A DNA stretch of 64,000 bases from Fulvivirga marina (GTDB lineage: Bacteria; Bacteroidota; Bacteroidia; Cytophagales; Cyclobacteriaceae). The position numbers and the translations under genes were made by a program. Positions 688 through 16,636 of the stretch are shown here, one piece after another. The stretch's first letter is position 1. Each line of letters opens with the position of its first letter. The notes under the pieces were generated by a model. The model worked only from the letters and a program-made list of their open reading frames with translations. It was not told the DNA's origin and did not search any database. The stretch is taken from contig NZ_JAEUGD010000066.1 of the NCBI RefSeq assembly GCF_016775155.1, positions 346,833 to 410,832 on the forward strand. The letters are read 5' to 3'.

Positions 688-1320
688 CTACAGCTTAAAA
701 CCAGATTCCGATATATTAAGATAGAACGGCTTTCGGCTTTCTATTTCTATATCCCGCCATTGAACTCCACAAGTATATTGATGAAGTTTTTTATTAAATA
801 GTTTGCGGTTGTAAGAATGTATCCTCTCCGGAAGTTCGAATTCAGTATAATCGTTTAGATAATACTTGGGGCCGAATAAATTTAATTTAATATCAAAAGT
901 AAGAGCCACATAAGGCACTTCTTCATATGTATCATTCCAAAAATTTAGATTTCCTGCATTTGCAACGTGTCTGGTTTCTACAATTCTATCATGTGCGTCA
1001 ACAAGATCAATGTAAAAACCGAAATTAACCGTAGCAGGTATATCATAAAAAGCTGTGCTCTCATTCAATGACTTCAACCATTTAACCCAACTTTCATCAC
1101 CACTCTTCCATACATTACTTCCACCTAAATCCTCCTTAGTATTTCCTATAACTATAGTATCGTAACTTATAAAATCAAATGCTTTAGAAAAGTTTATTAG
1201 GTCTTCCGTTAATGAACCCATATTAAATAACGAGTAGCTCCTAATAAATGACCACTCTGCAACTTGACCATACCTGATCATCTTCTCCAAATGATCTCTC
1301 TTACTGTAATCAAAAATCAT
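688..1320 (-). CDS. putative immunity protein, second tandem copy
   Basis: A 210-aa protein with no signal peptide or membrane segment, so probably cytoplasmic. I do not recognise a named family. It is a divergent paralogue of the gene just upstream (1341-1997): both end in a matching pattern, W-x2-I-[EK]-[IF]-E-S-x-K-P-[FY]-Y-L then GF[KE]L at the C-terminus, and both contain an N-x-R-x-[LV] stretch before it. It is the last gene after an orphan RHS toxin tip, the position where immunity genes for polymorphic toxins are found. The function is inferred from position and duplication. One of the two copies may protect against toxin variants held by sibling strains. The gap to the upstream copy is 20 bases, so they are probably co-transcribed. 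Confidence 0.55.
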   Translation of the reverse strand: MIFDYSKRDHLEKMIRYGQVAEWSFIRSYSLFNMGSLTEDLINFSKAFDFISYDTIVIGNTKEDLGGSNVWKSGDESWVKWLKSLNESTAFYDIPATVNFGFYIDLVDAHDRIVETRHVANAGNLNFWNDTYEEVPYVALTFDIKLNLFGPKYYLNDYTEFELPERIHSYNRKLFNKKLHQYTCGVQWRDIEIESRKPFYLNISESGFKL

Positions 1321-1340
1321 GTTTAATTTTCTACTGAAGT

Positions 1341-1997
1341 TTAAAGTTCAAAACCATCAGCGCCAAACTTCAAATAATAAGGCTTGGCACTTTCAAACTT
1401 GATTTCGTCCCAAGTCCAACAGCCAGAAAAATCCTTAATACCAGCATTTATTACGCGCCGGTTATGGTTGACAATTTTTTGGGGCAATAACATTGTAGCT
1501 CCATTATCAAGGTAAATTGACTCACTAAAAAGATTTCTCTGGATATAGACTATAAACTCAGTATGATTTGGTCCGTCTTCTTTTTCATGCCAAAGCTGAA
1601 AGTTTCCTATAGATTCTTCAACTCCTTTAATCGTATTATCATTATAATCAACTAATCCAAAATTGTAATTTAAGTCTCCGGAAGCAACTATATCATCTAA
1701 TCTCACATCCTTATCCTTAATACCATTAATCCAATCACCATATTCCTGTAATGCGCTTTTTTTATTCCAGACATTTCTGTTTGTCTGATTAATATTAGAA
1801 GCGGCTAAACCGATGGAATTATAGGTCATGTAGGAAAAACTAGTTCTAAAATCTTCTAGCAGTTTTTTAACAGTTTTCATGTTAATTTCATCTTTATACT
1901 TTTTAAATGACAGCATGCAAATATCTGAGTAGGTACTTATTTCGCTTAGTTGCAAGCTGTTATTAATAGGTATAATTAATCGTGATTGTTCAATCAT
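1341..1997 (-). CDS. putative immunity protein, first tandem copy
   Basis: A 218-aa predicted soluble protein that begins one base after the orphan RHS tip stops (tip ends at 1999). It shares its C-terminal block (WDEIKFESAKPYYLKFGADG) with the next gene downstream. No domain is recognised with certainty. Tight coupling to the toxin-tip reading frame strongly suggests an immunity protein that binds and neutralises the C-terminal toxin domain in the producing cell. This is inference from context. It is rich in aromatic and acidic residues, as is usual for immunity proteins. Confidence 0.6.
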   Translation of the reverse strand: MIEQSRLIIPINNSLQLSEISTYSDICMLSFKKYKDEINMKTVKKLLEDFRTSFSYMTYNSIGLAASNINQTNRNVWNKKSALQEYGDWINGIKDKDVRLDDIVASGDLNYNFGLVDYNDNTIKGVEESIGNFQLWHEKEDGPNHTEFIVYIQRNLFSESIYLDNGATMLLPQKIVNHNRRVINAGIKDFSGCWTWDEIKFESAKPYYLKFGADGFEL

Positions 1998-1998
1998 A

Positions 1999-4584
1999 TT
2001 ATTTTCTTAATAGTTCTAAATCCAAAGAAATAACTCCATCACTACCATGTACCCAAATTTCACCAACTACACCATCATTTTTTATTAAAAGACTAGGCTG
2101 ACGAACATTTTTTAGCCAGTGATTTTTCATCATCACAACAGGAATATCCACATTAATTCTAATGTCAATGTTATTGAAGCCCAACTCAACTGCTTTTTGG
2201 TACGTTTGGTTTATCTCGTTTATCATTTGTTTTTTACCTCCCAGTGTCTTCAACTGGAACATTTGTCCTGTTTCATTATAAAATCCATCTATTGCCTTCT
2301 GATTTTCAGCCGCCAAAACTAACTTCTGCCCCTTTTCTGAAGCTATAATATCCCCAAAAGAAACTTCCTTCGCCAGTCCATCTAAATCATTATACACCTT
2401 AGAATTATCTAACAAAACATTTCCTGATGAGCCAACTGCCGTACCTAAATTATCTAAATTAATCCCAATTTTCTGAGAACTTGCAGTTAAAAGTTCCTGG
2501 AACTGGCTGGCCTTTACAAACCCGGAGGTGCCATCAGCTTTTTTAACAAGATAGACACTCTCGCCTATAACGTTTCCAATGCCATCTTTCACAGCAATAT
2601 CCTTTGATATTTCTATAAATTCATCAGCGGATGTTACCGCATCATCCAGCCATCCATCATTTGCAACGCGCAATACATCATCAGCCCCTTCTTTCAAAAG
2701 TACACCAATTGTGGCTCCGCTCTTTCCTATTAAAGTGAATTGTTCATTGGCGGTTGGTAATACCTTACTTCCAAGTTGAATCGCCTTGGCAATAGCCCTT
2801 CGGGAAATTGCACTAAGCTTAGCAACATCTACCACCTTACCTCCAATCTTCACAACCATTCCAACAATACCGGCCTTAACAAGTGCCTCACCGGGCACCA
2901 AGTCAAGAATGGCTAGTGCCCTTTCCCAGCCTGCAAGCTGCTCATCAGTTCTATAGTGTTTGCCATTAATAATTGTTTGTGCAGCCACCAGCGGTGCTGT
3001 AACTATATCGGCAACAATGTACGAGTATAATACCAAACCACCTTCGTCACCGGGTATAGCATTACTCAGGTCTTTGATGTGATAGTTGATTTTATCCCTC
3101 CATTGATCTGTTACAGCGGCGCTTTTCCCCCAATAGTCAGCGCTACCTGCCCATATCGTAAGTTTATCAAAAAGCTCCCTTTCCGAATCATTATTATTAA
3201 AAGTAACGGTATAGGTCGTTGATATTTCATTACCATCCTTATCGGTAATAATATATTCTCCCTCAACAACCACCTTATCAGGGTGTACAAACATTTTGGG
3301 ATAGTTAAAGCCCAGATCTTCCCATAATTTCATCAGGTAGTCTCCCGCTCCAACTGGGTCTGGCCCAAACATCTTCAGGTTTTCGGAAACCTCGCGTTTA
3401 TAGTCAAAACCCGTTTTACCGGAGTAATGCTTTTCCAGCGCTATCGTACCTGCACCGGTATCAGTACTCTTATGTGTTTTTAACTGAGCATAAACCTTCT
3501 CGATGGAGTTGTTTTCGCTGTTATCGGTACCACTCTCATATTTACGCTGGCTACTCCCCACAAACCTTGGTTGGCGTATTTGCGGTCCGCTCACAGGCAT
3601 GGATGAAGCAGCATAAGTTTCTTTCTTGGGTCTTGCAGGGCCAAAGACAAAGCTTTCCTCATCCTGGCTGCCCAGCACATCAAAGCTTTTGCGACCTTCA
3701 CCCTTCGAGCTTTCAAAAGAACCTGTCCGAGCAACATGATCTCTGCTACCTCCGCTTTGCTGATCGTCCGTTTCGGTTGAGGTATTTTCATCCTGTTCGT
3801 CTTCTCTATCTTGCTTTCCGTTATCTTTCTTTTTCCCGTTGACCTTTCTGTGCCTTTTTTGCTTCTTCGTTTTAGGTAAATTAATCGCTACCCTGGAGTG
3901 TGTACCACGGCCTTTTACCCTCACTCGCTTCACTCTTTTATCTTTCTTCCGTTTATCTTTATTTTTCCCTGTTCTGGCTCGTTTATTTCTCTCTCTTACC
4001 TTGCTTCCATCTTCAATCAGCAAGCCCAGCAAGTCTTCATTATTGACAAAATTGTTGCCGGCGTATTGATACGTGCTTTGTTCAAGTTGCAGATCAGCAA
4101 GAGGGTCTATGTTATAAAACCTGCCTAAAACAGCATCGTACTTCCTAAAGCCTAAATCTTTAATACCATGCGCTATACCTCTGGTATTTACTGAACCTGT
4201 ATAGTATTCGTTATCGCGATGGTAAGGATTGAACGAAAGACCTAAAGCATAAAAATCTTCACTTTTTATGATTTTACTTCTATTGTGCGTTAGTTTCAGG
4301 TCATCAAAATACACCCAGTTATCAGTAGCACTTTCATTGCTCACATAGGCATAAATGTATCCGGCCTCTTTAATTTCTATGTCACCGATCTCTAGTTTTT
4401 CAACGTTAAAATTGGCATCATCGGACACCTGCAGGTACCCGGCATCTTTATAATTCATTTCATCATCGAAAAGAATATAATTAAGATATGCTGCCGGAAC
4501 ATTATCATTACTTGTTTGACCATTATCAAAAAACGCAAAAGCGTTGTCAAAACTGTTGTAAATGGTGAGTTGACACTTCCTCAC
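1999..4584 (-). CDS. orphan RHS-core toxin tip (displaced C-terminus)
   Basis: An 861-aa open frame without a signal peptide, starting at a GTG. Residues about 1-230 match the corresponding region of the large RHS protein at 7730-16207: PAAYLNYI at the start, then the RHS-associated core (GRFYNIDPLADLQ, YQYAGNNFVNNEDLLGLL) and a Lys/Arg-rich linker. It lacks the whole N-terminal RHS cage, so it is a displaced tip rather than a complete toxin. The middle carries a pretoxin-like hydrophobic segment (ERALAILDLVPGEALVKAG). The last 100 or so residues (from about FYNETGQMFQLKTLGGKK to the end) are the variable toxin domain; it resembles nuclease-type CdiA/RHS tips, but I cannot name the family. 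The true 5' end is fused out of frame to a short leader (4547-4690), so translation may be weak or absent. Two immunity candidates follow. Confidence 0.8.
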   Translation of the reverse strand: MRKCQLTIYNSFDNAFAFFDNGQTSNDNVPAAYLNYILFDDEMNYKDAGYLQVSDDANFNVEKLEIGDIEIKEAGYIYAYVSNESATDNWVYFDDLKLTHNRSKIIKSEDFYALGLSFNPYHRDNEYYTGSVNTRGIAHGIKDLGFRKYDAVLGRFYNIDPLADLQLEQSTYQYAGNNFVNNEDLLGLLIEDGSKVRERNKRARTGKNKDKRKKDKRVKRVRVKGRGTHSRVAINLPKTKKQKRHRKVNGKKKDNGKQDREDEQDENTSTETDDQQSGGSRDHVARTGSFESSKGEGRKSFDVLGSQDEESFVFGPARPKKETYAASSMPVSGPQIRQPRFVGSSQRKYESGTDNSENNSIEKVYAQLKTHKSTDTGAGTIALEKHYSGKTGFDYKREVSENLKMFGPDPVGAGDYLMKLWEDLGFNYPKMFVHPDKVVVEGEYIITDKDGNEISTTYTVTFNNNDSERELFDKLTIWAGSADYWGKSAAVTDQWRDKINYHIKDLSNAIPGDEGGLVLYSYIVADIVTAPLVAAQTIINGKHYRTDEQLAGWERALAILDLVPGEALVKAGIVGMVVKIGGKVVDVAKLSAISRRAIAKAIQLGSKVLPTANEQFTLIGKSGATIGVLLKEGADDVLRVANDGWLDDAVTSADEFIEISKDIAVKDGIGNVIGESVYLVKKADGTSGFVKASQFQELLTASSQKIGINLDNLGTAVGSSGNVLLDNSKVYNDLDGLAKEVSFGDIIASEKGQKLVLAAENQKAIDGFYNETGQMFQLKTLGGKKQMINEINQTYQKAVELGFNNIDIRINVDIPVVMMKNHWLKNVRQPSLLIKNDGVVGEIWVHGSDGVISLDLELLRK

Positions 4585-4690
4585 ATGAACGCCACTCTTT
4601 TTCAGTAACTATATTATAAACGTTTCCGATAGCAACATTAATTGTTGCAAAGAAGATTAAGAATAGCATTATGTATTTGAGTAGTTTCAT
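4547..4690 (-). pseudogene. hydrophobic leader peptide fused to RHS tip, out of frame
   Basis: A 47-codon frame starts with an ATG at 4690 and reads MKLLKYIMLFLIFFATINVA, a typical signal peptide or membrane segment, then about 15 more residues before it enters the RHS-homologous DNA in the wrong frame and stops. The same leader occurs at 5786 (MKLLKYIALFLIFFAAVDAV), where it also runs into RHS-tip DNA. Both are preceded by a hairpin terminator. It looks like the 5' remnant of a small exported protein left at a recombination junction near 4578. It could instead act as a translated leader for the tip that follows. Confidence 0.55.
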
Positions 4691-4699
4691 TGGTAATGC

Positions 4700-4725
4700 A
4701 AAAACAAGTACTCTGGCTGGTTTTT
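4700..4725 (-). terminator. hairpin terminator after 81-aa gene
   Basis: AAAAACAAG (4700-4708) pairs with CTGGTTTTT (4717-4725) with one mismatch. It lies 9 bases beyond the stop of the 4734-4979 gene and 10 bases before the leader peptide. A close relative lies at 5795-5821 in the same relative place. Confidence 0.5.
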
Positions 4726-4733
4726 ATTTTTCA

Positions 4734-4979
4734 TCATACGTGCGAGTTTCCTACCTTATCAATTCCTAATTGAGTTAAAGTTATCTTAACCTCTTTACCA
4801 TCTCTGACTATGTTAATAAACCCTTCCTCTACAAGTTTCTTTGGTACTATATTAAAACTCTCTTTGACAAGAATATTCCTAGTTATATACTTATCAAAAG
4901 AATACCTTGATACTTCTCCTCCATTATCTTGGATAAACTGAAGGCATTTTAGTAGCATTTCGTTTGTTATCTCTTTCAT
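4734..4979 (-). CDS. small winged-helix-like protein, candidate immunity
   Basis: An 81-aa soluble protein starting MKEITNEMLLKCLQFIQDNG. The pattern of three short helices followed by a beta hairpin (FINIVRDGKEVKITLTQLG) suggests a winged-helix fold. It starts just after the decayed toxin tip at 4984-5786 and is followed by a hairpin terminator, so its position is that of an immunity gene for that tip. Unlike the toxin beside it, its reading frame is intact, which fits selection to keep protection after the toxin has decayed. A small DNA-binding role is the alternative. Family not recognised. Confidence 0.5.
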   Translation of the reverse strand: MKEITNEMLLKCLQFIQDNGGEVSRYSFDKYITRNILVKESFNIVPKKLVEEGFINIVRDGKEVKITLTQLGIDKVGNSHV

Positions 4980-4983
4980 AATT

Positions 4984-5786
4984 AATTTCCTGGGTGATAT
5001 AACGGTGCGTCAGCTTCATATATGCTATAAGATTCCAAACTTGCTGCGTGAAGCGTTATAATAGAAGTCCTCATCATTACCCATCTGCTATTCCTTTATT
5101 TTTATACCTAGCGTACTCTTCCAATTCATGTGTATAAAAACGCTTATCATAATCTGTTGCTTCGATCTCTCCTCGCTCAATTCTTCAACCTTTCTATCAT
5201 CCCTGCATTGTCAGGATCAGCCCCAAACCTGTTCAAGTGCTTTTCTACATCACTAATGCCATCTGAATCTATATTTGCATCCGTCCAACCCCTTTTAATA
5301 ATTGGCCCACCTGCATCATCTGGATCGAAATATCTTCAAGAATGCTCTCCTTTAACTTTTAGTTCTCCAGGATTATAAACATCATTATTATCAAGCTTTC
5401 CAAGTACAGTACCATCAGCTTGTTTCACAATTCCACCACTCTCAATGGTTAGACCATTATATAGATACCTATTGGTCTTTGCCAAAGCCTCTGGGCTGGT
5501 CTTCAACCCCCACATCATCCAACCCCCTCCAGGAGTCGACCAAGTCGGGAGCAACAAAAAACACATTATGCTCCCCTGAATCGCACTTCTCGAACAAAGA
5601 AATCCCGAACATACCATTTTCTTGTGAAGACGATTCAATCGGTTCTTTCTTTTTATTAAAATCAGTTAATCCTTCTACATATGAACATCGATCTTCTTCA
5701 TGTACTACTGCATAGTCCTTTCCTATTACAGCATCAACCGCTGCAAAGAAAATTAAGAATAGAGCTATGTATTTGAGCAGTTTCAT
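4984..5786 (-). pseudogene. decayed RHS toxin tip with FYTHEL motif
   Basis: Starts with the same leader as at 4690 (MKLLKYIALFLIFFAAVDAV, ATG at 5786), continues for about 65 residues and then enters RHS pre-tip sequence (VDSWRGLDDVG, compare ADSWKKLDDLG in the EndoU tip). A five-base G/C run at 5507-5511 shifts the frame; removing one base gives LKTSPEALAKTNRYLYNG and on to KVKGEHS, where an in-frame stop lies at 5336-5338. The frame then continues YFDPDDAGGPIIKRGWTDA, SDGISDVEKHLNRFG, another shift near 5177, then ATDYDKRFYTHELEEYARYK, another shift near 5085, and ends with ESYSIYEADAPLYHPGN at 4984. The FYxHEL...Y and YHPG pattern recurs at the ends of many contact-dependent or RHS toxins; an H-E pair could be metallopeptidase-like, but that is a guess. 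At least three frameshifts and one stop make it non-functional. Confidence 0.65.
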
Positions 5787-5794
5787 ATGAAGAC

Positions 5795-5821
5795 AAAAAC
5801 CAGCAACTAGCACTGGTTTTT
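5795..5821 (-). terminator. hairpin terminator after 115-aa gene
   Basis: Perfect 9-bp stem AAAAACCAG (5795-5803) / CTGGTTTTT (5813-5821) with a 9-base loop. It starts 4 bases after the stop of the 5825-6172 gene and ends 9 bases before the leader ATG at 5786. The symmetrical A and T runs make it usable on both strands. Confidence 0.7.
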
Positions 5822-5824
5822 TGT

Positions 5825-6172
5825 TTACCTGTTTTGGCTCTCCAAAAATTCGAGCCATTCCATTACTAAGTTCCTAAAATCTATGGAAGGCATTATCAAG
5901 TCTTTATAACCTACTTCGCTTCCACACAATTCCGTTTTTTCTTTCTGCACAACAGCAAGCCCCACTACATCTGCACCTATTTCAACAAAACTCACTTCCC
6001 CTTCTAACACGGAATTTATACCTGGTAATAAAGTCTCCTTTATCTCCCTAGGATCTCTCCATATATCTAAGTATTGAGCTAAAATTTCATATTCAGAACT
6101 TTCAGACACAGATGTCTTTCTATTTTCTATAAAAATGAATTTTACAGGATACTTTTCTATTGTTTTATTCAT
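5825..6172 (-). CDS. candidate immunity protein for EndoU tip
   Basis: A 115-aa predicted cytoplasmic protein that starts 4 bases after the stop of the EndoU tip (6177) and ends just before a perfect hairpin terminator. It is acidic (many Glu/Asp), fitting a partner of a basic nuclease. It has no signal peptide and no recognised domain. The immunity role is inferred from position only. The reading frame is intact although the DNA upstream of the EndoU tip carries frameshifts. Confidence 0.55.
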   Translation of the reverse strand: MNKTIEKYPVKFIFIENRKTSVSESSEYEILAQYLDIWRDPREIKETLLPGINSVLEGEVSFVEIGADVVGLAVVQKEKTELCGSEVGYKDLIMPSIDFRNLVMEWLEFLESQNR

Positions 6173-6176
6173 ATTG

Positions 6177-6764
6177 TTATATTTCAGGGAATGCAGAACT
6201 CACATTGCCTGCTTCATCCAAATAAATTGTAAGATTCGTTCCATCTGACATTGTCCCTTGATACTTATTTCCTCCCAAAGAAGTCTTATTATTGAAAGCA
6301 TAAGCCATTTCTGCCTGAACCTTCTCCTTAGACCATGAATCTGGAAAAAATGTCGACTCTTTTGATTTCACTTTCCAACCGTCGTTTGGAGAATAAGACT
6401 CACCAGTAAATGCTTCCACTTTAGCCTCAACTTTAGCTTTATAATACCTATTACCTACTGGAGTAATTTCACCTTTAATTCTCAACTTATTTGGGTCTAA
6501 TGCATCTTTGCTGTGTGCTCCCGAAACACTCCACATCTTGGTTCCATCAGGAGCTAATTTTTGCAGACCAGTATTTGGGTCAATAACGGGCTTAACATCT
6601 CCTTCAAATATGTGCTTATTAAGCGGCCCATTCTTAACTACATCATCCAGTTTCTTGAGATAATCAGGATCTCTTTTCCAACCATCGGGAACATCATCCC
6701 CAAGATCATCGAGTTTCTTCCACGAATCAGCCAAATCCGCATTCTCAGCCAATGCCTCGGCCAA
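6177..6764 (-). CDS. orphan RHS tip with bacterial EndoU nuclease domain
   Basis: The open frame gives about 195 aa from a TTG codon that lies inside the conserved pre-tip sequence (AEALAENADLADSWKKLDD), so the start is arbitrary. Residues from about 50 on match the bacterial EndoU family (RNA endonuclease found at the ends of polymorphic toxins): HIFEGDVKP with the first catalytic His, GAHSKDAL with the second His, then TFFPDSWSKEKVQAEMAYAF, the hallmark of the family. The domain would cleave RNA in a target cell. The nuclease part is intact, but the DNA upstream (6765-6983) is frameshifted and carries no start or secretion signal, so this is a displaced, probably silent tip. Its immunity gene follows at 6172. 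Confidence 0.8.
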   Translation of the reverse strand: MAEALAENADLADSWKKLDDLGDDVPDGWKRDPDYLKKLDDVVKNGPLNKHIFEGDVKPVIDPNTGLQKLAPDGTKMWSVSGAHSKDALDPNKLRIKGEITPVGNRYYKAKVEAKVEAFTGESYSPNDGWKVKSKESTFFPDSWSKEKVQAEMAYAFNNKTSLGGNKYQGTMSDGTNLTIYLDEAGNVSSAFPEI

Positions 6765-6830
6765 CTCGTCATTCGCTGCTATATCCTCTCCAAATCTACG
6801 GGCTGTTACATCATCAAAGCCTTTTCCTTT
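6726..6830. repeat. 105-bp identical repeat, copy 1
   Basis: Bases 6726-6830 are identical to 8423-8527. They encode the conserved pre-tip stretch (GFDDVTARRFGEDIAAND and ELAEALAENADLAD) just before the variable nuclease domain. The flanks remain similar but not identical. The repeat marks where a tip can be exchanged by homologous recombination. Confidence 0.9.
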
Positions 6831-6983
6831 TATGGTAGCCCAATCAATCTTGCCTAATTTACCAGTTTCTTAAATACATCGGCCACTTTATCAAAAAGCT
6901 TCTTCCCCCAGTCAAAACAGCCGCAATTAAAGTTACAGCATCATAAGTACCCGCATATTGGGGGACTTCCACTCATAAGCTAG
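6765..6983 (-). pseudogene. frameshifted RHS pre-tip remnant upstream of EndoU
   Basis: This stretch matches the main RHS protein region around QYAGFYDTS to GKIDWATVKGKGFDD. To read through it, single bases must be restored: one C near 6962 (SP-QYAGTYDAVTLIAAVLTG), one A near 6904 (TGGKKLFDKVADVFK) and one A near 6873 (KKTGKLGKIDWATIKG). Homology begins within a few bases of the stop of the upstream immunity gene (6986), which is what is expected if a newer tip plus immunity cassette recombined in and pushed this older tip downstream. Confidence 0.7.
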
Positions 6984-6985
6984 AA

Positions 6986-7729
6986 CTAAAGTAGATGCCT
7001 TTTAAATCCCAAAGCAATAGGATTCCTAAAATGATTAAGGCTTTGGATCTTCTTATCCCAATTAACTTTTGATAAAAGGTATATATCCACTTCTGGATAT
7101 GTTTGGGAAACAACCTCTACCATTTCGTCCATATCCATCCAGCCATCGTTAGCTGTGTACCCTTTCAGTAACTTGTTACATTCATGACTTATCAATTCCA
7201 TCCGTTCCTGATCCAGTGTATCGGGAAAAAGATATTCCCAAGCTGCTTTCTTAACATGAAAAACCACATCTTCCTTTGTGTAATAGATTTCTCCAAAGGC
7301 CAACTTATAGTCATGTTTGGTTGCAAACCTAAGCCAAGAGAATTGCTCGCTGTCCATTAATTCATGTATATTGGAAAAACTGTGAATTTCAATATCCTTC
7401 AATTGATCGCTTAATTTTTCTCTCTCTTCTTCTGCCAACTTAGCCTCTCTATTTGAAATTGTACCCACCAAACCAGAGTATATCAACAGATCATCTATCT
7501 TGAACTCTCTTGGTGGCATGTCATCGGCGGTAGGAACAAATTTTGTCTCTAATGCAATTTTTATCCAATCAAAAGAGTTATCATTTAATTTTTCAATCAA
7601 ATTAGACTTCAAACCTTCTTTACTAAAACCAGGGTTATGTCTCTCCAGCTTATTAATTATCTTATCGATAGAGTAGCCCCATTCAGATAAAGACATATAA
7701 CCTCTAAAAAACACTATTAAATCTTCCAT
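6986..7729 (-). CDS. candidate immunity protein of the active RHS tip
   Basis: A 247-aa predicted soluble, acidic, helix-rich protein. Its start codon directly abuts the stop of the large RHS protein (7730), so translation is probably coupled. No family is recognised; a Glu-rich coiled segment (NREAKLAEEEREKLSDQLKD) lies in the middle. Because it is the first gene after the complete RHS toxin, it is the best candidate for the cognate immunity protein that neutralises the tip with the RHGHDVT motif. Function is inferred from context. Confidence 0.6.
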   Translation of the reverse strand: MEDLIVFFRGYMSLSEWGYSIDKIINKLERHNPGFSKEGLKSNLIEKLNDNSFDWIKIALETKFVPTADDMPPREFKIDDLLIYSGLVGTISNREAKLAEEEREKLSDQLKDIEIHSFSNIHELMDSEQFSWLRFATKHDYKLAFGEIYYTKEDVVFHVKKAAWEYLFPDTLDQERMELISHECNKLLKGYTANDGWMDMDEMVEVVSQTYPEVDIYLLSKVNWDKKIQSLNHFRNPIALGFKRHLL

Positions 7730-10700
7730 TTACTTATTTGGATACATTGTTACTAACTGAAAAACCCCTGAAGAAACTTCTTCATATACGGCAGTTACTT
7801 TAGACATCTGCTGCAATCCATTGCCAACATTTTTACCATATCCAACTCCAAAATTTCCGGGATGTTCCACAATCCAATTTCCAGAAATTGGGTCTTGAAT
7901 CTTAGCGGTAAAAGCGGGGGTTCCAGGCTTAACATTCTCCAAAGCTTCTTTTACCATTTCAGGGCTATTGAACCGTGAGGCATAATTTGACACCTGTTGC
8001 ACAGCACCATCTGGAGCAATTCCTGTCTCTACCCTTTTTATTAAGGCATCATTGGTAACATCATGGCCATGTCTTTCTAATACGTGAGCATCTGGATGCT
8101 CAGTAAGCTTTGTAAGATCATCCGCATTGTAACCAGACGTATCAGGTGTACGCTTCATCTTTAGCTCACCACCATCATCTACAAGCTGATAGCCATTCTT
8201 TGGCTCACCAATCGGTGTACCATCTCCATACTTTTCAGGCAACACATTACCGTTCTTAATCTCTGCAATTTTCTTTCCCGCCGCATCTGTCAAATTAAGA
8301 TTGCCATCTAAATTTTTGGAGAGTGTTGCCCCTGCACCATCCCAGTCATTTACATGACTCAAAAATTCCGGATTTTTTTTAAGTGGATTATCAGGATCAA
8401 TTTCATCCATCTTCTTCCACCCATCAGCCAAATCCGCATTCTCAGCCAATGCCTCGGCCAACTCGTCATTCGCTGCTATATCCTCTCCAAATCTACGGGC
8501 TGTTACATCATCAAAGCCTTTTCCTTTAACCGTCGCCCAATCAATTTTGCCTAATTTACCAGTTTTCTTTAAAATGGTTGATAGCTCGTCAAAAACTTTC
8601 TTACCTCCTGTAAGTATAGAAAAAATGATGGCAGAAGTGTCATAAAAACCAGCATATTGAGCTGACTTCTCATATTCGGCAATTTTACCGTAGTACATAT
8701 TTTCTAAGGTTGAGAAATCAATGGAAATTATAGACTCTATCAATTGTTGACGGGTCTTTTTGTCAAACATCGACAATCCGAAAGCGACCATTTCAGGGAT
8801 ACTTTTCAGCTCATCCAACGCACTGTTTCCTACTCCTGCCGCCGGATCAGGCACCCAAATCCCCCAGGTGTTGGAGACTCCACCCTGCTCGTACCAATGC
8901 GACTCTTCAATGCCAACATCATCCAGCAGATCTTTAGCTGCTTTAACCACAAGCATGGTCTTCTCAAAAATATTTAATACAGGTTCATCCGCATCGGCCG
9001 TAGTGCCTTCAAGTTGGCTGGGAACATCTATATTGGGATCATTAGCCGGACTGAAGGTCTCACTGACTTCACCATCTGTTGCCAAAAAACCGCCATCATC
9101 ATAGATTTCGTATATGAGTAAGGTTCGTGCATTTCCTTCATCGTCTGTCCATTCCAGAGATCTGTTTTCAAAGGTAATTTCTCCTACTATATCCACCACA
9201 TCCCCAGAGTAGTTGCTGTAAACCTGTGTATTGTTATAGTCTATAGCCGACTGTATGGCCTCATCTCTGCGAGCTTCAAACTCAGCCATAACCGTTGCAT
9301 CATGAGGCAGAGCTACCACGGTACCATCGTCATATTTTTTCTCTGTTGGCAGTACAAACAGGTCATCACGATATACCAAATGCCGCTCATATGTGCCATC
9401 CTCTTTTTTGGCCAGGATCATGGTCACATCTTTATTTGTACTCCTTACGCCAAGATTATAATCATCCACTATGATGTCAAAATAGGCTTCTTCAACAATC
9501 ATAACCTCTGCATCCAGTCCGAACGGTTCGCTTTCAAATGTACTCATGGAGTTTTTAAGCTTATCACTCTCGGCCTGGTCGATACCTACAAAGTCATGTA
9601 GATCGCCATCGGCCAGTATCCGGTTTTTAATGCGGTTAATCTCGTCCTGTATCAGGTCATGATTAGCATCCAGATACTCCTGTATCTCAGAAGGCACAAC
9701 AATCTCCTGCTGCTGAATGGCCTCGTTAAGCAAGTCTCGGATAAATTTACCTGCCTTCAAAAAAATCATTTGCTCTTCTACGGAACCACTTGCTGTAATG
9801 TCAACCTTATTAACATTTAACAGGTCTATGTGGTCTTCCCCCATATTTACCTCTATATAAAGATCACTAAGCACGCCATTAATACCGTCATTTTCATAAT
9901 CAACAGTATATCCTCCATCTTTTACCGTTACATGCACAGGTTCTGCCTGGTCAAACGCCTCATCGTCATACTGACTGTAAGTGGTTCTGGCATCTATAGC
10001 CCTTTTAAAGCTGGAAGAAAACGGATGCTTCGACTGTATCAATAGCTTATAATGCAATGCCAGGGCCTGACCAAAAGGCAGGTTACCTGCCAGGTGTTCA
10101 AATTTCGCTACTTCAGGCTGATTCACACCTTTCTCATGCCAGTATTGCACATGACCTGATAAGCCGGACTGGTCGGTGCTTATAGACGGAGTCCCTGAAT
10201 CTGAAGACGGTCTGTATCGTGGTGATTTATTTTCAATATTATTTCCAGAAAACAATGGTCCATGTACGCGATCAATTTTATTTTTAATAGCTTGTTCCTT
10301 GTAGTTCTGATCGGCTTCATTCCCAACTCCATAGGCAATTAACCTATTAACTACATCCATCGTGCTAAGATCACTCTTTGCTAAGTTGTCCTTTTGTTCT
10401 GAACTATTCTCATTTGAAGCAGACTCATCCTCGGAACCTGATGACCCATCATTTTTATCTCCTCTACTCTGCTTTCTCTTCTTACCCTTGGTCACATATA
10501 CATACATTTTTCTTTTAGTATGCGTGCCTCGGGATTTCACCTTCACTTTTTTTACTTTGGCTTTATCCTTTTTATCTTTTTCCTTCGGACCCGTTGCTTT
10601 TTTATTGCCATTCCTCATCTTCCAACTGTTATCCTCAATCAAAAGGCCCAAAAGGTCTTTGTTATTTACAGGATCGTTACCAGCATATTGATAGGGACTC

Positions 10701-13700
10701 TGATCCAATTGCAATTCAGTAAGGGGATCAATGGTGAGGAACCTTCCGGTAACTGGTTCATATTGCCTGAAACCAAGATCCTTCCACCCTGTACCCTTCT
10801 GGGAATATGATCCTTTATAATCGGAAACCAGCCTTTTATATCCATTAAATGACAACCCAAAAGGAAAATAATCATCCGTTTGTATCACTGGGTGCTCCCG
10901 AAGAGTGACTTTCATATCGTCAAAGTATACTGGATTTTCCGTATTACTTTCATTGGTAAGGTAGATATAAATAAAGCCAGGCTTATCAGCCACAATATTT
11001 TCTATAGCGATTTTTTTATGACTTCCCGCCTCTTCCAGAACCTGTGCATGACCAAATTTCTGTAGATTCATGTTCTCATCGAACATAATATAGTTGAGGT
11101 AGGCAGCAGGCCTTGTATCGCTGGAGGTGCCGCTAAGTAATGCATTACCATTATTTACATTGTTAAATGCATCGTAGGTAGACTGTTCGTAGGTGTTACC
11201 TCCATTTACACCGCCAAAAGCACCTGCAATAGCGCTAATCATAGCAGTAGGATTTTGTAGGGAAGAATATCCATCTCCACCTTCATAATACGCATAAACT
11301 TCAATATCAACTTCATCGCCGATTCCCAGTGGCAAGCTAATTGATGGGCCTACCGGAGATGAAACATTGAGTCGTACCACCTGATCACCACCGTCATCAT
11401 TGGCATCAGCCGTGCTAAATGTGACTCTTGTCTCGGGTATATTGGTGTACAGATTTTCTTCATCCGTGCCCACCTCTGATTCAAAGGAAGCTGAGAATAT
11501 TAAAGTGTCAGGGTTGGCCGTAAATATTACCCTTGTGTTATCAAAGTTATCTTTGATATGATACTGATACTCAAATCCCTCTTCACCTTCTTTTGCCATC
11601 AATTGCCCCTGATCATGCTGGATAAGTTGCAATGCAGGCTCTGAATCCAGGACCTTCTCGTAAATAAATTCTCCCACAAAATCTGTCCGGGTTGTATATC
11701 CGTATTCGTAAATGATTTGTGCCAGTTTTTTCCCCTGAGCATTATAGATATATTCAACATAATCATTATCATTTTTGATTACTTTAACAGGTAGATTAAG
11801 GTGGTTATAGGTAATTTGATCTATACCTTTATTGGCATCAACAATCATATTACCATTGGCATCGTACACATAATCATCACCTTGTATATCCCTAAATCCT
11901 TCTTCCTTATAGGTCAGAAGATCATTTTCAGCCACATGGAGCAGCCTGTTGGCATGGTCAGCGCCTTGTCCATAATTATACTCCAGCTGGTCAATCACCT
12001 CCGGACCATCGTGGTCCGCGTAACGCGTCAACCCAAGTATGTTTCCATTGCGGTCATAACCTTGAATGTACTCGTTATATCCTCCCTGTTTTAATGTCCA
12101 TGCACCGGTCTGGCCTTCAACATAGTCTGCCAACCTCAAGCGGTTAAGTCCATCATAAACATAACCATAGGCTTTGCTTTCAGACTTACCCAATGTTTTC
12201 CATTTTACCCCGGCTACGTTACCATTGTACTGTTGCTGCTCAAAGCCATGATCATACATCAGTTCCATACCGAAATAATCATTAGGGCTTAGCACTTCAG
12301 TCTCCGACAATTCGCTGTTATTAATATGTGTCAGCCAACCTCTTGGGTTATAAGCGTAATCCACGCTTTGCGCAAATGAGGCTTTGTCATCTTCACTATG
12401 CAGGTTTTTCTCTATCAGCTCCCCTATTTCATTGTACTCGTTATGCGAAAGCAACACTCTTTGAAGCTTACTCAAATGCACATCCTCTAAAATGTATCCA
12501 TCAGAGTAAACACTTACATCTACCAGTAAAGCTGTATTGAGAGCGCTAACGGTTCTTAGTAATTGGTCATTATGAAAGTACTGTATTGAACCGTTTTTTC
12601 TTTCAATCTTGAACTTGTCGCCGACCTTATATTTATGAACACCTGACAGCAGGTTAGCAGAACCTTTTTCTCTAACCTGAAATGTGCTATCACTTCTTAA
12701 AAAGAAAGCGTATTGGATGGTGTTCCAATGTTCGTTGGCATTGGATGGAGATAAACCGATCATCCTATGATAGTCTACAACCTCAGCCGTAAGCGCTAAA
12801 GCTCCATCTTCATCCATAGGCAACTGATTTAAAGAAGCCGCTCCGCCATTCCAGTTATTCACACCTGCATTTTTCACAATGCCTTCGGTCTCATAAGTCA
12901 TATTTACAAGATCCTTCCACTCCACTTTTTCATATGAGCCGATGGAATGGTAAGTATCTACCAGTCGACCTAAGTGATCATAGGACATATCATAAATTAC
13001 AGTAACATCCTTACCGGAAGTTTTTACCTCCACCTGGTCCCCTGAAAAATTGTACCTGTAGGAAGTTATATTAACATCTCCTTGCTGATTTTCTTCCTGT
13101 ATTTGAATTACCCTGTATTCATCGTCGTAATAGGTTACGGACTTCAGCCATTTGAAATCGCCTAATACTTTGGCAACGGTACCAGTAACCAGACCCACGG
13201 CTCGGTCAAACGGTGCCGTATGCCCCAGCTCAGGCTCAAAAGCCAGGCTGTCTGCATAAGAAAATTCATAATCATCATAATAGGTGATCAGGTAATAATT
13301 TTCAACGAGCGTATCTACCGGGAAGGCCTGGTTAGTATACCCGAACATCTCATCTCCTCTTTGCTCAAACAAAACGGGGTGATTCTTTACGGCATTGCGC
13401 ACATCATCTAAAGAGCCGAACATCTCTGTAACCCCATGCATGACCGGCCTGTTTACCTCATCGTACTTGGTAAAGGCCCACTCTCCATGCAAACGCTGGT
13501 TTCCATCCTGGGTAAGTACCAGTCTATCCCTATTGTCATATACCAGATACATTGCTTCTGCACCAGGCACCTTTTTGGATATCATGCGGTCCCTCCCATC
13601 ATATTTATACTGAAATGCCCAGTTATCAATAATGCCGAAGTCAGTAGCCCAACTGAAGCCATCAACGATCTTTGCCGAACACTCCGGAGGTAATACATAC

Positions 13701-16207
13701 CGAAGGTTACTAAACATATCGTAGACATAATATGTATCCAGCCAGTCTCCCCGGTTGTTACCATTAACTCGCTTGAGCACCGTTCTTCCCAGCTTATCAG
13801 TAAACTCATGCACTTCCTGACCGTGCTCATCTACCGCGACCTCTACCATCAACTCACCACTGTAAACATATCCCTGATGCACCAGCTGATCATCAATCAC
13901 GGACCACCGGGTTACTACCTGGTCATCGGCAGCGTTATAGGGCCTCACATCGCTTTGGGTAGTATGCCCGCTCCCCAGTCTCCAGGACTCACCAGGTGCC
14001 GACTCTTCAAGGGCTTTATCCAATGGTGAATTTTCAAATCGTGTTTCGGCATAAGCAACACCGGTACGGGCAACTTTATAAGCAAGTGACCCCGGGCTGG
14101 TATTGTCCAGATTTCTGTAGAAATCATATTGCTCCAGCAAATGATTATTTCTGTATGCACCAAGACCGGAAGCACTTACATAAGGTAGGTATTCTCTATA
14201 CTGCCTCCCTCCTTTATCATAGGCTACGGCATGAATGATATCATTTTTCCCTGGAGAACCCTGCTTAACCACCGTTTGCACCGGTCGTCCCAAACCATCA
14301 ATATATTGCGTTGAAACATTGACCTGCTCAACAGGGAGATCAGGGACAGTACCTATTACCCTCAAATCATTTGATGGCGTTTTGAATGTATATGTTCTTA
14401 CAAAATTGACATCAGATGTCCCTAAAGTAGCTGTGGGGACATTACTTTGCAGTATCGGTGCTGATGAGTCGTCCGGACTGTTGCCCAGTGCGACCACTTT
14501 TACCGACCGGGTATTAAAATAGTCCGTTCCATTTAAACTTACTGCCAAATGGTAAACGCCGGGTACAGATACATTCAGCTCAGGCTGAGTGCTTCCGCTA
14601 ATATTGTTACCATCCTTTACCCATTGGTAATGGTTAAAAACGTTATTATTATCAATGTAAAGACGGGTTTGCTCACCATTCTTTATAAAAAGCGAACCAT
14701 CTACATGTATTACAGGGATGAGGAAGACATTGCTGGTAACAGATTTCGCTACCGCACTTGAACAACCGTCTTTAACACTATAAACATCAAAAGTACTGGT
14801 CTCGGTACAAAAAGCCCTGTATGTGGTACCTTCGTATTCCTTAATGCCATTTCTATACCAGTGATAGGTATAAGCCGGGTTAGCATCATTTACCGTCATA
14901 GTGACAAAGCCCGGATTTATAAGGTCTTCAACACTTACATCAGCAGAGGCAACAGGCAAAGGATCAATATTTACCTCCGCGGTAAAGCCAACACTGGACA
15001 AAGTGCCATCGCACTGTTTTGGTCTAAGATAATAAGTACCTGAAGTTGTTACGGTAAGAGTAGGCCCTGAACCTAATGAAGAGGAATTGCCTGCTCTGTA
15101 CCAGTGCCAGGTCTCACACCCCTCAGGCGCCCCTTTTCTCGTAAGAATAGCTTTTCCACATTGCATTTCAACATCAGGTGCAGGAAGAATTACCTCTACA
15201 AAGACTTCATTGATTTTGAAAGGACCGGAACATCCTTTAATGTACCCGTCACCGAGCTGATCCCACCGCACATCAGCATAATACCTTGTGCCTTCGGAGT
15301 AGGTATTTAATATTGTAGTACCTTCATTAGCATGCCACCAGACACCGGCAGAACCTGAGTTATCAACATAATAAGTTATTTGCTGCCCTAAAGCTACATT
15401 TACAGGGTCAATTGGGTTATCACCAATGACTGTTACACTCGATGAAGGCCCCCAACAATTCTCGTTTTTAGCTCTTAGATAATACGTACCTGCTGTGGCA
15501 GGCCTTGTTTCCCTTGAATCAGAAATATCTGTTCCTTCTGCTTGTGTCTGCCAATAATATGTTAGTCCCTCCGGAGGCGTCTCTCTTGACAATGTAGCCA
15601 ATCCGCAATTGTACAATACGGTAGGTACCGGTGGCATGGCAGGGTTTATAACCGAAACAGATACCGAACCTGACCCAAGACTCCAGCTATTGCCACTTTT
15701 TGCTCGCAGATAGTATGTTCCTGAGCTATTAGCCACATAAGTGCTGCCATAACCTAAGGCCGTGCTGGTTCCATTTGAAGTGGTTTGCCAGTACCATGTC
15801 ACTTCCGAGGGAGGTGTACCCTGACGGGTAAGGGTTTTACTACCACATAAATTTGTTGATGCTGTCGGATTCGGAGGAGTTGCCGGTGGTACATCTATGA
15901 TCACCGTAAGTGTACTTTTAACTAGATCTCCATTTTTAAATTTGATTGTACCGGAGCTAACATAGTTCCACTTTATCCTAACAACATAAGCTACTTTAGC
16001 TTCCGGGTCATTGTCAGGCATCATAGTTCCCTGATAGGTGATAACACCTCCGGTAACTTCCCAGTTAGGCCTAAGCTGAAGAAACTCATCGGAGTATGTA
16101 TACATCAATTCCACGTCCGCGTCTGCATTCGTTGGCCCGCTAATAACACCGGCATAAACAGAACATGTGATCAGGGTAACAACTATAGAAAGTAAAAATC
16201 TTATCAT
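7730..16207 (-). CDS. giant exported RHS polymorphic toxin
   Basis: About 2825 aa from the ATG at 16207; a longer frame begins at a GTG at 16231 but the ATG gives a clean signal peptide (MIRFLLSIVVTLITCSVYAG). Order of parts: three Ig-like repeats (W-Y-W-Q-T ... GTYYLRAK) in the first 450 residues; a DUF6443-type region around residues 620-760 (YIDGLGRPVQTVVKQGSPGK); RHS/YD repeats (YGYVYDGLNRLRLADYVEGQ, YVYDANGNMIVDANKGIDQI); the RHS-associated core near residues 1815-1850 (GRFLTIDPLTELQLDQSPYQ, YAGNDPVNNKDLLG); a Lys-rich linker; about 700 residues of conserved pre-tip; and a variable tip from about residue 2600. The last 130 residues contain HVLERHGHDVTND, GIAPDGAVQQ, YASRF and end VTAVYEEV...LVTMYP; similar motifs end other polymorphic toxins and suggest an RNase-like fold (inference). 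Unlike T6SS RHS proteins it has no PAAR domain and uses Sec export. Confidence 0.9.
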   Translation of the reverse strand: MIRFLLSIVVTLITCSVYAGVISGPTNADADVELMYTYSDEFLQLRPNWEVTGGVITYQGTMMPDNDPEAKVAYVVRIKWNYVSSGTIKFKNGDLVKSTLTVIIDVPPATPPNPTASTNLCGSKTLTRQGTPPSEVTWYWQTTSNGTSTALGYGSTYVANSSGTYYLRAKSGNSWSLGSGSVSVSVINPAMPPVPTVLYNCGLATLSRETPPEGLTYYWQTQAEGTDISDSRETRPATAGTYYLRAKNENCWGPSSSVTVIGDNPIDPVNVALGQQITYYVDNSGSAGVWWHANEGTTILNTYSEGTRYYADVRWDQLGDGYIKGCSGPFKINEVFVEVILPAPDVEMQCGKAILTRKGAPEGCETWHWYRAGNSSSLGSGPTLTVTTSGTYYLRPKQCDGTLSSVGFTAEVNIDPLPVASADVSVEDLINPGFVTMTVNDANPAYTYHWYRNGIKEYEGTTYRAFCTETSTFDVYSVKDGCSSAVAKSVTSNVFLIPVIHVDGSLFIKNGEQTRLYIDNNNVFNHYQWVKDGNNISGSTQPELNVSVPGVYHLAVSLNGTDYFNTRSVKVVALGNSPDDSSAPILQSNVPTATLGTSDVNFVRTYTFKTPSNDLRVIGTVPDLPVEQVNVSTQYIDGLGRPVQTVVKQGSPGKNDIIHAVAYDKGGRQYREYLPYVSASGLGAYRNNHLLEQYDFYRNLDNTSPGSLAYKVARTGVAYAETRFENSPLDKALEESAPGESWRLGSGHTTQSDVRPYNAADDQVVTRWSVIDDQLVHQGYVYSGELMVEVAVDEHGQEVHEFTDKLGRTVLKRVNGNNRGDWLDTYYVYDMFSNLRYVLPPECSAKIVDGFSWATDFGIIDNWAFQYKYDGRDRMISKKVPGAEAMYLVYDNRDRLVLTQDGNQRLHGEWAFTKYDEVNRPVMHGVTEMFGSLDDVRNAVKNHPVLFEQRGDEMFGYTNQAFPVDTLVENYYLITYYDDYEFSYADSLAFEPELGHTAPFDRAVGLVTGTVAKVLGDFKWLKSVTYYDDEYRVIQIQEENQQGDVNITSYRYNFSGDQVEVKTSGKDVTVIYDMSYDHLGRLVDTYHSIGSYEKVEWKDLVNMTYETEGIVKNAGVNNWNGGAASLNQLPMDEDGALALTAEVVDYHRMIGLSPSNANEHWNTIQYAFFLRSDSTFQVREKGSANLLSGVHKYKVGDKFKIERKNGSIQYFHNDQLLRTVSALNTALLVDVSVYSDGYILEDVHLSKLQRVLLSHNEYNEIGELIEKNLHSEDDKASFAQSVDYAYNPRGWLTHINNSELSETEVLSPNDYFGMELMYDHGFEQQQYNGNVAGVKWKTLGKSESKAYGYVYDGLNRLRLADYVEGQTGAWTLKQGGYNEYIQGYDRNGNILGLTRYADHDGPEVIDQLEYNYGQGADHANRLLHVAENDLLTYKEEGFRDIQGDDYVYDANGNMIVDANKGIDQITYNHLNLPVKVIKNDNDYVEYIYNAQGKKLAQIIYEYGYTTRTDFVGEFIYEKVLDSEPALQLIQHDQGQLMAKEGEEGFEYQYHIKDNFDNTRVIFTANPDTLIFSASFESEVGTDEENLYTNIPETRVTFSTADANDDGGDQVVRLNVSSPVGPSISLPLGIGDEVDIEVYAYYEGGDGYSSLQNPTAMISAIAGAFGGVNGGNTYEQSTYDAFNNVNNGNALLSGTSSDTRPAAYLNYIMFDENMNLQKFGHAQVLEEAGSHKKIAIENIVADKPGFIYIYLTNESNTENPVYFDDMKVTLREHPVIQTDDYFPFGLSFNGYKRLVSDYKGSYSQKGTGWKDLGFRQYEPVTGRFLTIDPLTELQLDQSPYQYAGNDPVNNKDLLGLLIEDNSWKMRNGNKKATGPKEKDKKDKAKVKKVKVKSRGTHTKRKMYVYVTKGKKRKQSRGDKNDGSSGSEDESASNENSSEQKDNLAKSDLSTMDVVNRLIAYGVGNEADQNYKEQAIKNKIDRVHGPLFSGNNIENKSPRYRPSSDSGTPSISTDQSGLSGHVQYWHEKGVNQPEVAKFEHLAGNLPFGQALALHYKLLIQSKHPFSSSFKRAIDARTTYSQYDDEAFDQAEPVHVTVKDGGYTVDYENDGINGVLSDLYIEVNMGEDHIDLLNVNKVDITASGSVEEQMIFLKAGKFIRDLLNEAIQQQEIVVPSEIQEYLDANHDLIQDEINRIKNRILADGDLHDFVGIDQAESDKLKNSMSTFESEPFGLDAEVMIVEEAYFDIIVDDYNLGVRSTNKDVTMILAKKEDGTYERHLVYRDDLFVLPTEKKYDDGTVVALPHDATVMAEFEARRDEAIQSAIDYNNTQVYSNYSGDVVDIVGEITFENRSLEWTDDEGNARTLLIYEIYDDGGFLATDGEVSETFSPANDPNIDVPSQLEGTTADADEPVLNIFEKTMLVVKAAKDLLDDVGIEESHWYEQGGVSNTWGIWVPDPAAGVGNSALDELKSIPEMVAFGLSMFDKKTRQQLIESIISIDFSTLENMYYGKIAEYEKSAQYAGFYDTSAIIFSILTGGKKVFDELSTILKKTGKLGKIDWATVKGKGFDDVTARRFGEDIAANDELAEALAENADLADGWKKMDEIDPDNPLKKNPEFLSHVNDWDGAGATLSKNLDGNLNLTDAAGKKIAEIKNGNVLPEKYGDGTPIGEPKNGYQLVDDGGELKMKRTPDTSGYNADDLTKLTEHPDAHVLERHGHDVTNDALIKRVETGIAPDGAVQQVSNYASRFNSPEMVKEALENVKPGTPAFTAKIQDPISGNWIVEHPGNFGVGYGKNVGNGLQQMSKVTAVYEEVSSGVFQLVTMYPNK
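8423..8527. repeat. 105-bp identical repeat, copy 2
   Basis: Identical to 6726-6830 and located in the pre-tip region of the complete RHS gene, about 1.7 kb upstream on the coding strand of the displaced copy. Recombination between the two copies would delete the present tip plus its immunity gene and place the EndoU tip onto the complete RHS protein. Confidence 0.9.
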
Positions 16208-16234
16208 TATTAATGAATTAATGCTCAACACGAA

Positions 16235-16636
16235 TTAATTATAGGAAATGGTATGCACAACCACCCGGATAGCGTACTGGTTATCAGGATCGATTTTGAC
16301 TTCCGTTAAGTCGGCAGTACTATCGATAATAACCTCCTTAGTGCTACCATCAATTTCCACAGCGTAGGTCAATACACCCTGATTGGTGCTTTGATCCCAA
16401 TCACCGCTAACCTCTGAGACTACAAACCGGACCTCCTGGCTGCTACCGCTTTGACTAAACTGTGTCCATACTATATTCCCCCCTGAGATTTCAATCGTTG
16501 ACTCTATCGGAAATTTCTGTTCACCACTAATGGCTTCAGAGCTCTCAAGCTTCATCGTAGCGGGCACCTGTGCCAAAGCATTAACTGACAGAGTTACAAT
16601 ACCCAATAATATTAGCAATGCTTTAACTTTAGTCAT
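16235..16636 (-). CDS. small exported protein of the RHS operon
   Basis: A 133-aa protein from the ATG at 16636 (longer upstream starts lie inside the previous gene). Residues 1-22 form a Sec signal peptide (MTKVKALLILLGIVTLSVNA followed by LAQ). The remainder is a single beta-rich domain with an acidic surface, ending in AIRVVVHTISYN. It overlaps the 3' end of the 1185-aa gene by 8 bases and is 27 bases from the RHS start, so the three genes form one operon. Family not recognised; a domain shared with the opening of the RHS protein (GGxIxW/YxG, VxxxVxWxYV-type strands) suggests a related beta-sandwich, possibly an adaptor or secretion partner. That role is a guess. Confidence 0.7.
   Translation of the reverse strand: MTKVKALLILLGIVTLSVNALAQVPATMKLESSEAISGEQKFPIESTIEISGGNIVWTQFSQSGSSQEVRFVVSEVSGDWDQSTNQGVLTYAVEIDGSTKEVIIDSTADLTEVKIDPDNQYAIRVVVHTISYN

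Follow-up and report, generated by a model that had tools for sequence, protein, structure and literature searches.

The locus lies on the minus strand of a 64,000-nucleotide stretch of Fulvivirga marina DNA (the window; G000:C63:346833-410832) in an assembly of 6.78 Mb. A first-pass annotation of this DNA had described one complete exported RHS protein and three displaced tips. Every ORF it named was found in place in the ORF list, and this description stands except for the fourth unit, which is the end of a carrier and not a tip alone. Upstream of the carrier lies an RHS/YD-repeat companion protein of 1185 amino acids (16629..20186), whose RHS/YD matches are weak only. Its position in the gene order is kept in a second species of the same genus (G014) and in a genome of another genus (G027), with 78% and 28% identity to the respective counterparts, and it may belong to the same shell as the carrier. 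A small ORF (16235..16807) overlaps the end of the companion and has a likely signal-peptide start inside the frame; no family was found for it, and the gene order is conserved in G014. The intact carrier with its fused C-terminal tip follows and stands first in the array (7730..16231), with DUF6443 at 2.7e-36 in a Pfam scan, an RHS core at 7.1e-13 (about 10870-10643) and a likely signal peptide from the ATG at 16207. Signal peptides, including this one, were called by eye together with a crude hydrophobicity rule rather than by SignalP, and leader hairpins were called by eye.

The current tip of the carrier (7730..8347, the start being approximate) begins about 770 residues beyond the RHS core, after a W-x-x-L-D-D-like sequence that reads by eye as a pre-tip motif. 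It is possibly RNase A-like. Four of five members of its family match PF18431 (CdiA-CT RNase A-like) weakly, the best at 3.5e-4 and the window copy without a match, and a separately encoded tip in genome G675 exceeds the PF18431 cut-off yet resembles the current-tip family marginally (0.006). A fold search with the current-tip model (pLDDT 71.8, pTM 0.55) returned nothing at E 0.001 or better, and searches of solved structures at E up to 1 gave two matches for the end of tip 4, none for the EndoU unit and three for the tip profile, none of them convincing. Homologues of the tip are rare, occurring in 4 of 245 family genomes and at five loci in a scan of GTDB contigs, two of which (G033 and G252) are the same records as family-genome matches. 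When compared with a plasmid collection the carrier had no match, and the tip matched over 20% of the query only, in nine Vibrio plasmids. In these records (NZ_CP119304.1 and eight others) a 56-residue piece of the current-tip family, at 51% identity, lies inside a hypothetical protein. Directly behind the tip lies its candidate immunity gene (6986..7729).

Three displaced units follow. The first is an open frame encoding an EndoU tip (6177..6764; PF14436 at 7.1e-14, 52.7 bits against a cut-off of 25.3), with stops upstream in every frame and neither a carrier nor a signal peptide to be seen. Residual pre-tip DNA overlaps its start (6706..6868): positions 6868-6706 repeat the main pre-tip region at 8565-8403 with about 94% identity (93.9% over 163 bp, E 5e-68). 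The EndoU unit is thus a detached tip with carrier-like upstream DNA and without a start of its own, which the leader-bearing third tip is not. A candidate EndoU immunity gene lies behind it (5825..6172). The second displaced unit (unit 3, counting the carrier tip as the first), carrying a FYTHEL motif (4984..5786), stands behind leader module A (5664..5821), which comprises a hairpin, a signal peptide and a cysteine. The first-pass annotation had called this tip decayed; the three frames contain 16, 20 and 22 stops, but the stretch from the ATG at 5786 opens with the signal-peptide leader and stays open for its first 105 codons. An 81-aa winged-helix-like gene (4734..4979; PF22665 weak and below its cut-off) comes next and is an immunity candidate from its position. 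Leader module B (4568..4725) precedes the third displaced unit (unit 4), 861 codons long (1999..4584), which contains an RHS core (4.6e-08), a pre-tip region and a tip and across about 268 residues shares 46% identity with the main carrier. The DNA before these last two units is itself repeated, 5821-5664 matching 4725-4568 at 71% over 159 bp (E 5e-15). Behind the 861-codon unit lie candidate immunity genes 4a (1341..1997) and 4b (688..1320), paralogues of 24.5% identity named as candidates by position. All small genes of the array remain open frames; PHROGs and PADLOC scans of them gave weak matches that were unhelpful.

The key comparison was with the orthologous locus of one other species of the same genus, G014 (locus L025). 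In blocks of 60 residues the two carriers share 67-93% identity over G014 residues 481-1560 and then 33-61%. From about G014 residue 1765 the 861-codon unit of the window aligns instead, at 40-93% with 9 of 12 blocks at 78% or more; in a single alignment it is 77% identical to the G014 carrier end over 694 residues, so we regard it as the old carrier end. From the block identities, about the last half of the window carrier would therefore have been replaced, with the break near 11836 and the old end now lying as the farthest unit of the array. The first ~480 residues of both carriers have diverged too, with 22-53% identity where aligned and long stretches unaligned, so the divergence is not confined to the region of the tip.

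EndoU, the tip type that is displaced in the window, forms the end of the G014 carrier, and three relatives of the EndoU immunity candidate lie behind this carrier. Further downstream in G014 comes a displaced tip of another kind, joined to a pre-tip copy with 90.6% DNA identity to window 2943-2636, and then the main immunity gene of the window without a tip, at 98.4% DNA identity over 733 bp. This copy lies at 16223-16933 of L025. It is followed by a pair of transposases, in which HTH_Tnp_1 and integrase-core domains were recognised, and beyond them by the remnant of a tip that over 106 residues shares 74% identity with an ORF of the G027 array. Where the locus aligns between the two species, identity is mostly only 74-78%, so that the value of 98.4% suggests a recent transfer of the immunity gene between them. 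The first-pass annotation had proposed stepwise tip replacement with retention of old cassettes, and the EndoU carrier, the tip-less immunity gene and the old carrier end all support this. It had also named a fixed order of the four tips across relatives as an outcome that would count against that proposal; in the one same-genus species compared, the order is not fixed, with EndoU on the carrier, a different tip displaced and an immunity gene without its tip.

These comparisons lead us to conclude, with considerable confidence, that the locus encodes an RHS polymorphic toxin of the Sec type and that recombination has exchanged its C-terminal end more than once, old ends being shifted downstream and kept with their neighbouring genes. 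The mosaic carrier, the displaced units, the DNA repeated at their joints and the differing tip set of G014 are all directly visible in the sequences. The present tip would then stop competitors, perhaps as an RNase, and the retained immunity genes would still protect. An array grown by tandem duplication and divergence within one lineage, without import of foreign tips, would account for the internal repeats of the locus and for the paralogy of 4a and 4b. We consider it very improbable, because in DNA and protein comparisons the tips have no similarity to each other outside the shared pre-tip and core, and the near-identity of the immunity gene in an otherwise diverged locus suggests recent transfer.

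Other genomes also point to exchange. The current tip of the window recurs in G027 at 64% identity, where it has a gene of its own behind a different RHS carrier; in G033 it stands, on a short contig, behind a different upstream sequence that by eye has what we presume to be a HINT look, with no Pfam support. Judged from these sequences, tips are exchanged between related genomes (G014, G027 and G033). In G027 (L021, L022) another RHS gene lies a few kb away; over 672 residues it shares 98% identity with the first carrier but its end differs, which points to duplication or gene conversion. The genome of the window holds a further RHS locus (L028, G000:C64, 2378-14319) where several RHS-like ends and small genes follow one another; the 1526-aa ORF there has a C-terminal stretch that matches EndoU.

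The first-pass annotation had placed candidate immunity genes behind each tip, and homology now backs this candidate role for the main and EndoU tips, with position as the ground for tips 3 and 4. A profile built from five genes behind copies of the current tip matches the window gene at 7729-6986 (8.3e-18), the G014 copy, the genes behind the L044 and L042 tips and the gene behind a partial tip in G027. Members of this family lie behind 9 of 11 current-tip copies, five of these nine being rows of the profile itself; no member follows the L046 tip or the second L042 tip. The EndoU immunity candidate is 26-31% identical to the three genes behind the G014 EndoU carrier. Among 245 genomes searched with gene 4a, two gave a match, one of them the genome of the window, which alone has 4a and 4b together.

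The export route was approached from the components of known systems. The genome encodes the T9SS protein SprA (2557.5 bits). Scans of the carrier, which ends in the tip, against Pfam and NCBIfam at E 0.1 showed no C-terminal T9SS sorting domain. The first-pass annotation had described the locus as free of PAAR and T6SS parts; in agreement with this, the Pfam scan of the carrier gave no PAAR domain and the sheath family VipB (PF05943) had no match in the genome, the E. coli control being positive, so that the absence of a T6SS is judged by this one sheath family. The TssC model PF17541 matched nowhere and is hence uninformative. We infer that the carrier would cross the outer membrane through the T9SS or some system other than a T6SS.

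Units 3 and 4 are each preceded by a hairpin and by related signal-peptide leaders, which carry a cysteine about a dozen residues after the likely cut, that of B two codons later than that of A. The frame of leader A continues into a pre-tip motif before it breaks. Leader B and the old carrier end are in different frames, which implies that other rearrangements took part, so that the order of swaps is fixed only in part. Across 58 genomes the leader occurred three times, twice in the window and once in G027, there too before a tip piece; the G027 copy contains a frame break. The leaders resemble the beginnings of tips that are exported on their own, and relatives carry this form intact. Such split pairs, in which a tip-less carrier is immediately followed by a separate gene for the tip, were seen at five loci: G027, G308, Aquimarina (L045), a second locus in the genome of the window (C25) and G675. 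The split carriers of G027 and G308 have an RHS core, G308 with DUF6443 as well; that of Aquimarina matches TANFOR at 25.7 bits against a cut-off of 67, and those of C25 and G675 gave no family match. The C25 system (L087, G000:C25, 8522-12194) consists of a carrier ending in Cys-Lys, a signal-peptide tip with one cysteine and a small gene behind; overlapping ORFs precede this carrier, which may be one piece of a broken carrier.

All five split carriers end in C-x-stop, and all five split tips have signal-type starts. The tips hold one cysteine each in G027, C25 and G675 and two each in G308 and Aquimarina, all at most about 15 residues from where the signal likely ends, and none elsewhere. 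To put the terminal cysteine in context we counted ORF pairs in which a frame of at least 300 residues is followed by a signal-type ORF (37 pairs from 153 sources with overlapping loci, repeats being removed by the last 60 residues). A cysteine in the last three residues was present in all five split pairs and in one of the 32 other pairs (Fisher 1.4e-5), and in 10 of 194 among all such frames of at least 300 residues. This count is post hoc, the cysteine having been seen in three pairs and then in two more reached through a profile that holds the tip cysteine and nothing of the carrier. The fused carriers have no cysteine after residue 851 (window) or 1097 (G014), that is, in their last 1,500 or more residues. 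The split tips of G027, G308 and Aquimarina belong to the current-tip family; C25 lies outside it and G675 is marginal, so the paired-cysteine pattern spans more than one tip type. A lipoprotein site was considered for the cysteine behind the signal and is unlikely in four tips, because the preceding residue is Q in G027 and C25 and D in G308, and in G675 the cysteine comes about 14 residues on; in the Aquimarina tip such a site is possible.

Two readings of the leaders were weighed. In one, carrier and tip would leave as two Sec proteins, and outside the cytoplasm a single disulfide would link the first cysteine of the tip, near its signal, to the terminal cysteine of the tip-less carrier, leaders A and B being remains of such tips. 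This would supplement repeated end-swapping and not replace it. The invariant carrier ending, the confinement of the tip cysteine, the contrast with other ORF pairs and the lack of a late cysteine in the fused carriers speak for it. The pairs number only five and were counted post hoc, 15 further regions yielded no new pair, the C25 carrier is perhaps broken over several ORFs, the cysteines of leaders A and B are two codons apart, the signal peptides were called by eye and a crude rule, and the window carrier is itself fused; we therefore put disulfide joining forward tentatively, as something short of probable. In the other reading the displaced tips yield no product and serve as a silent reserve from which later swaps draw, and the leaders are chance joins. 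The EndoU unit without a visible signal and behind stops, the decay of tip 3, the frame of leader B and the break in the G027 leader copy would fit this, but the leader recurs before a tip piece in another genus, signal-peptide tips stand behind carriers at five loci and the small genes stay open. We regard silence of the displaced tips as likewise short of probable. Repeated swapping of the carrier end, with old ends retained, is our preferred account of the array itself.

Wider surveys were made with the EndoU tip, the tip profile and the carrier end. EndoU matches occurred in 17 of 390 genomes. Among the short ORFs that could be read at these loci, three (L048, L050 and L053), all from genus g18, encode single-domain EndoU proteins with signal-type starts and were set aside as a separate thing; a motif search in the survey loci found no frame in L060 or L062 and unrelated frames only in L049, L064 and L065. 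The tip profile matched 6 of 325 class-level genomes, of which that of the window and G675 yielded the split pairs described above. Matches in L090, L091 and L092 appear unrelated, and L089 (G678), a small exported protein after another exported protein with no tip motif, was not counted as a pair. The carrier-end profile had matches at E up to 1 in 60 of 166 and 56 of 110 genomes, the top three being rows of the profile, a few others falling below 0.01 (G027, G021, G024 and G675) and the rest being weak; the 15 regions without a new split pair were hand-picked among these matches.

The array itself is of a kind known from CDI and Rhs loci, as the first-pass annotation had recognised. Passages of Poole et al. 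2011 (PMC3150448) describe orphan CT/immunity arrays in which a full-length carrier is followed by detached tips with adjacent immunity genes. As in the arrays of those passages, homology to upstream sequence is left on detached tips and relatives exchange them; unlike them, the carrier here is a Sec-type Bacteroidota protein, its tip starts about 770 residues past the RHS core behind the W-x-x-L-D-D-like motif, two leftovers have signal-peptide leaders and one is a whole carrier end. Sequential displacement of Vibrio cholerae T6SS effector genes, which leaves immunity gene arrays according to parts of PMC5361080, is alike in its serial replacement; here no VipB-type sheath gene was found and tips are kept too. 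The portion of Zhang et al. 2012 (PMC3482391) consulted covers tip exchange with standalone cassettes, EndoU tips, RHS and Sec-dependent export. The window shares tip exchange, an EndoU tip, RHS and Sec-type export with the systems in that portion, where the word 'disulfide' is absent. Toxin genes downstream of the carrier are likewise known for TANFOR polymorphic toxins of Bacteroidetes, which in sections of PMC7073777 have a Sec signal, are proposed by the authors to use T9SS export and sometimes have their toxin in the gene directly behind the carrier; neither 'cysteine' nor 'disulfide' appears in the main text of that paper. Compared with the TANFOR toxins of those sections, the five split carriers here are two RHS-type, one weakly TANFOR-like and two unclassified. 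A literature search of titles, abstract starts and passages found neither a disulfide-joined split polymorphic toxin nor the leader and paired-cysteine signature.

The comparison of the window with G014 documents, at base level and between species, the replacement of tips in Sec-type RHS toxins of Bacteroidota. If the cysteine pairing is real, it would explain how a separately encoded toxin rides on its carrier, a possibility raised in sections of the TANFOR paper (PMC7073777). Tips could then be swapped as whole small genes without in-frame fusion, and the array in the window would hold the remains of split tips beside fused ones.
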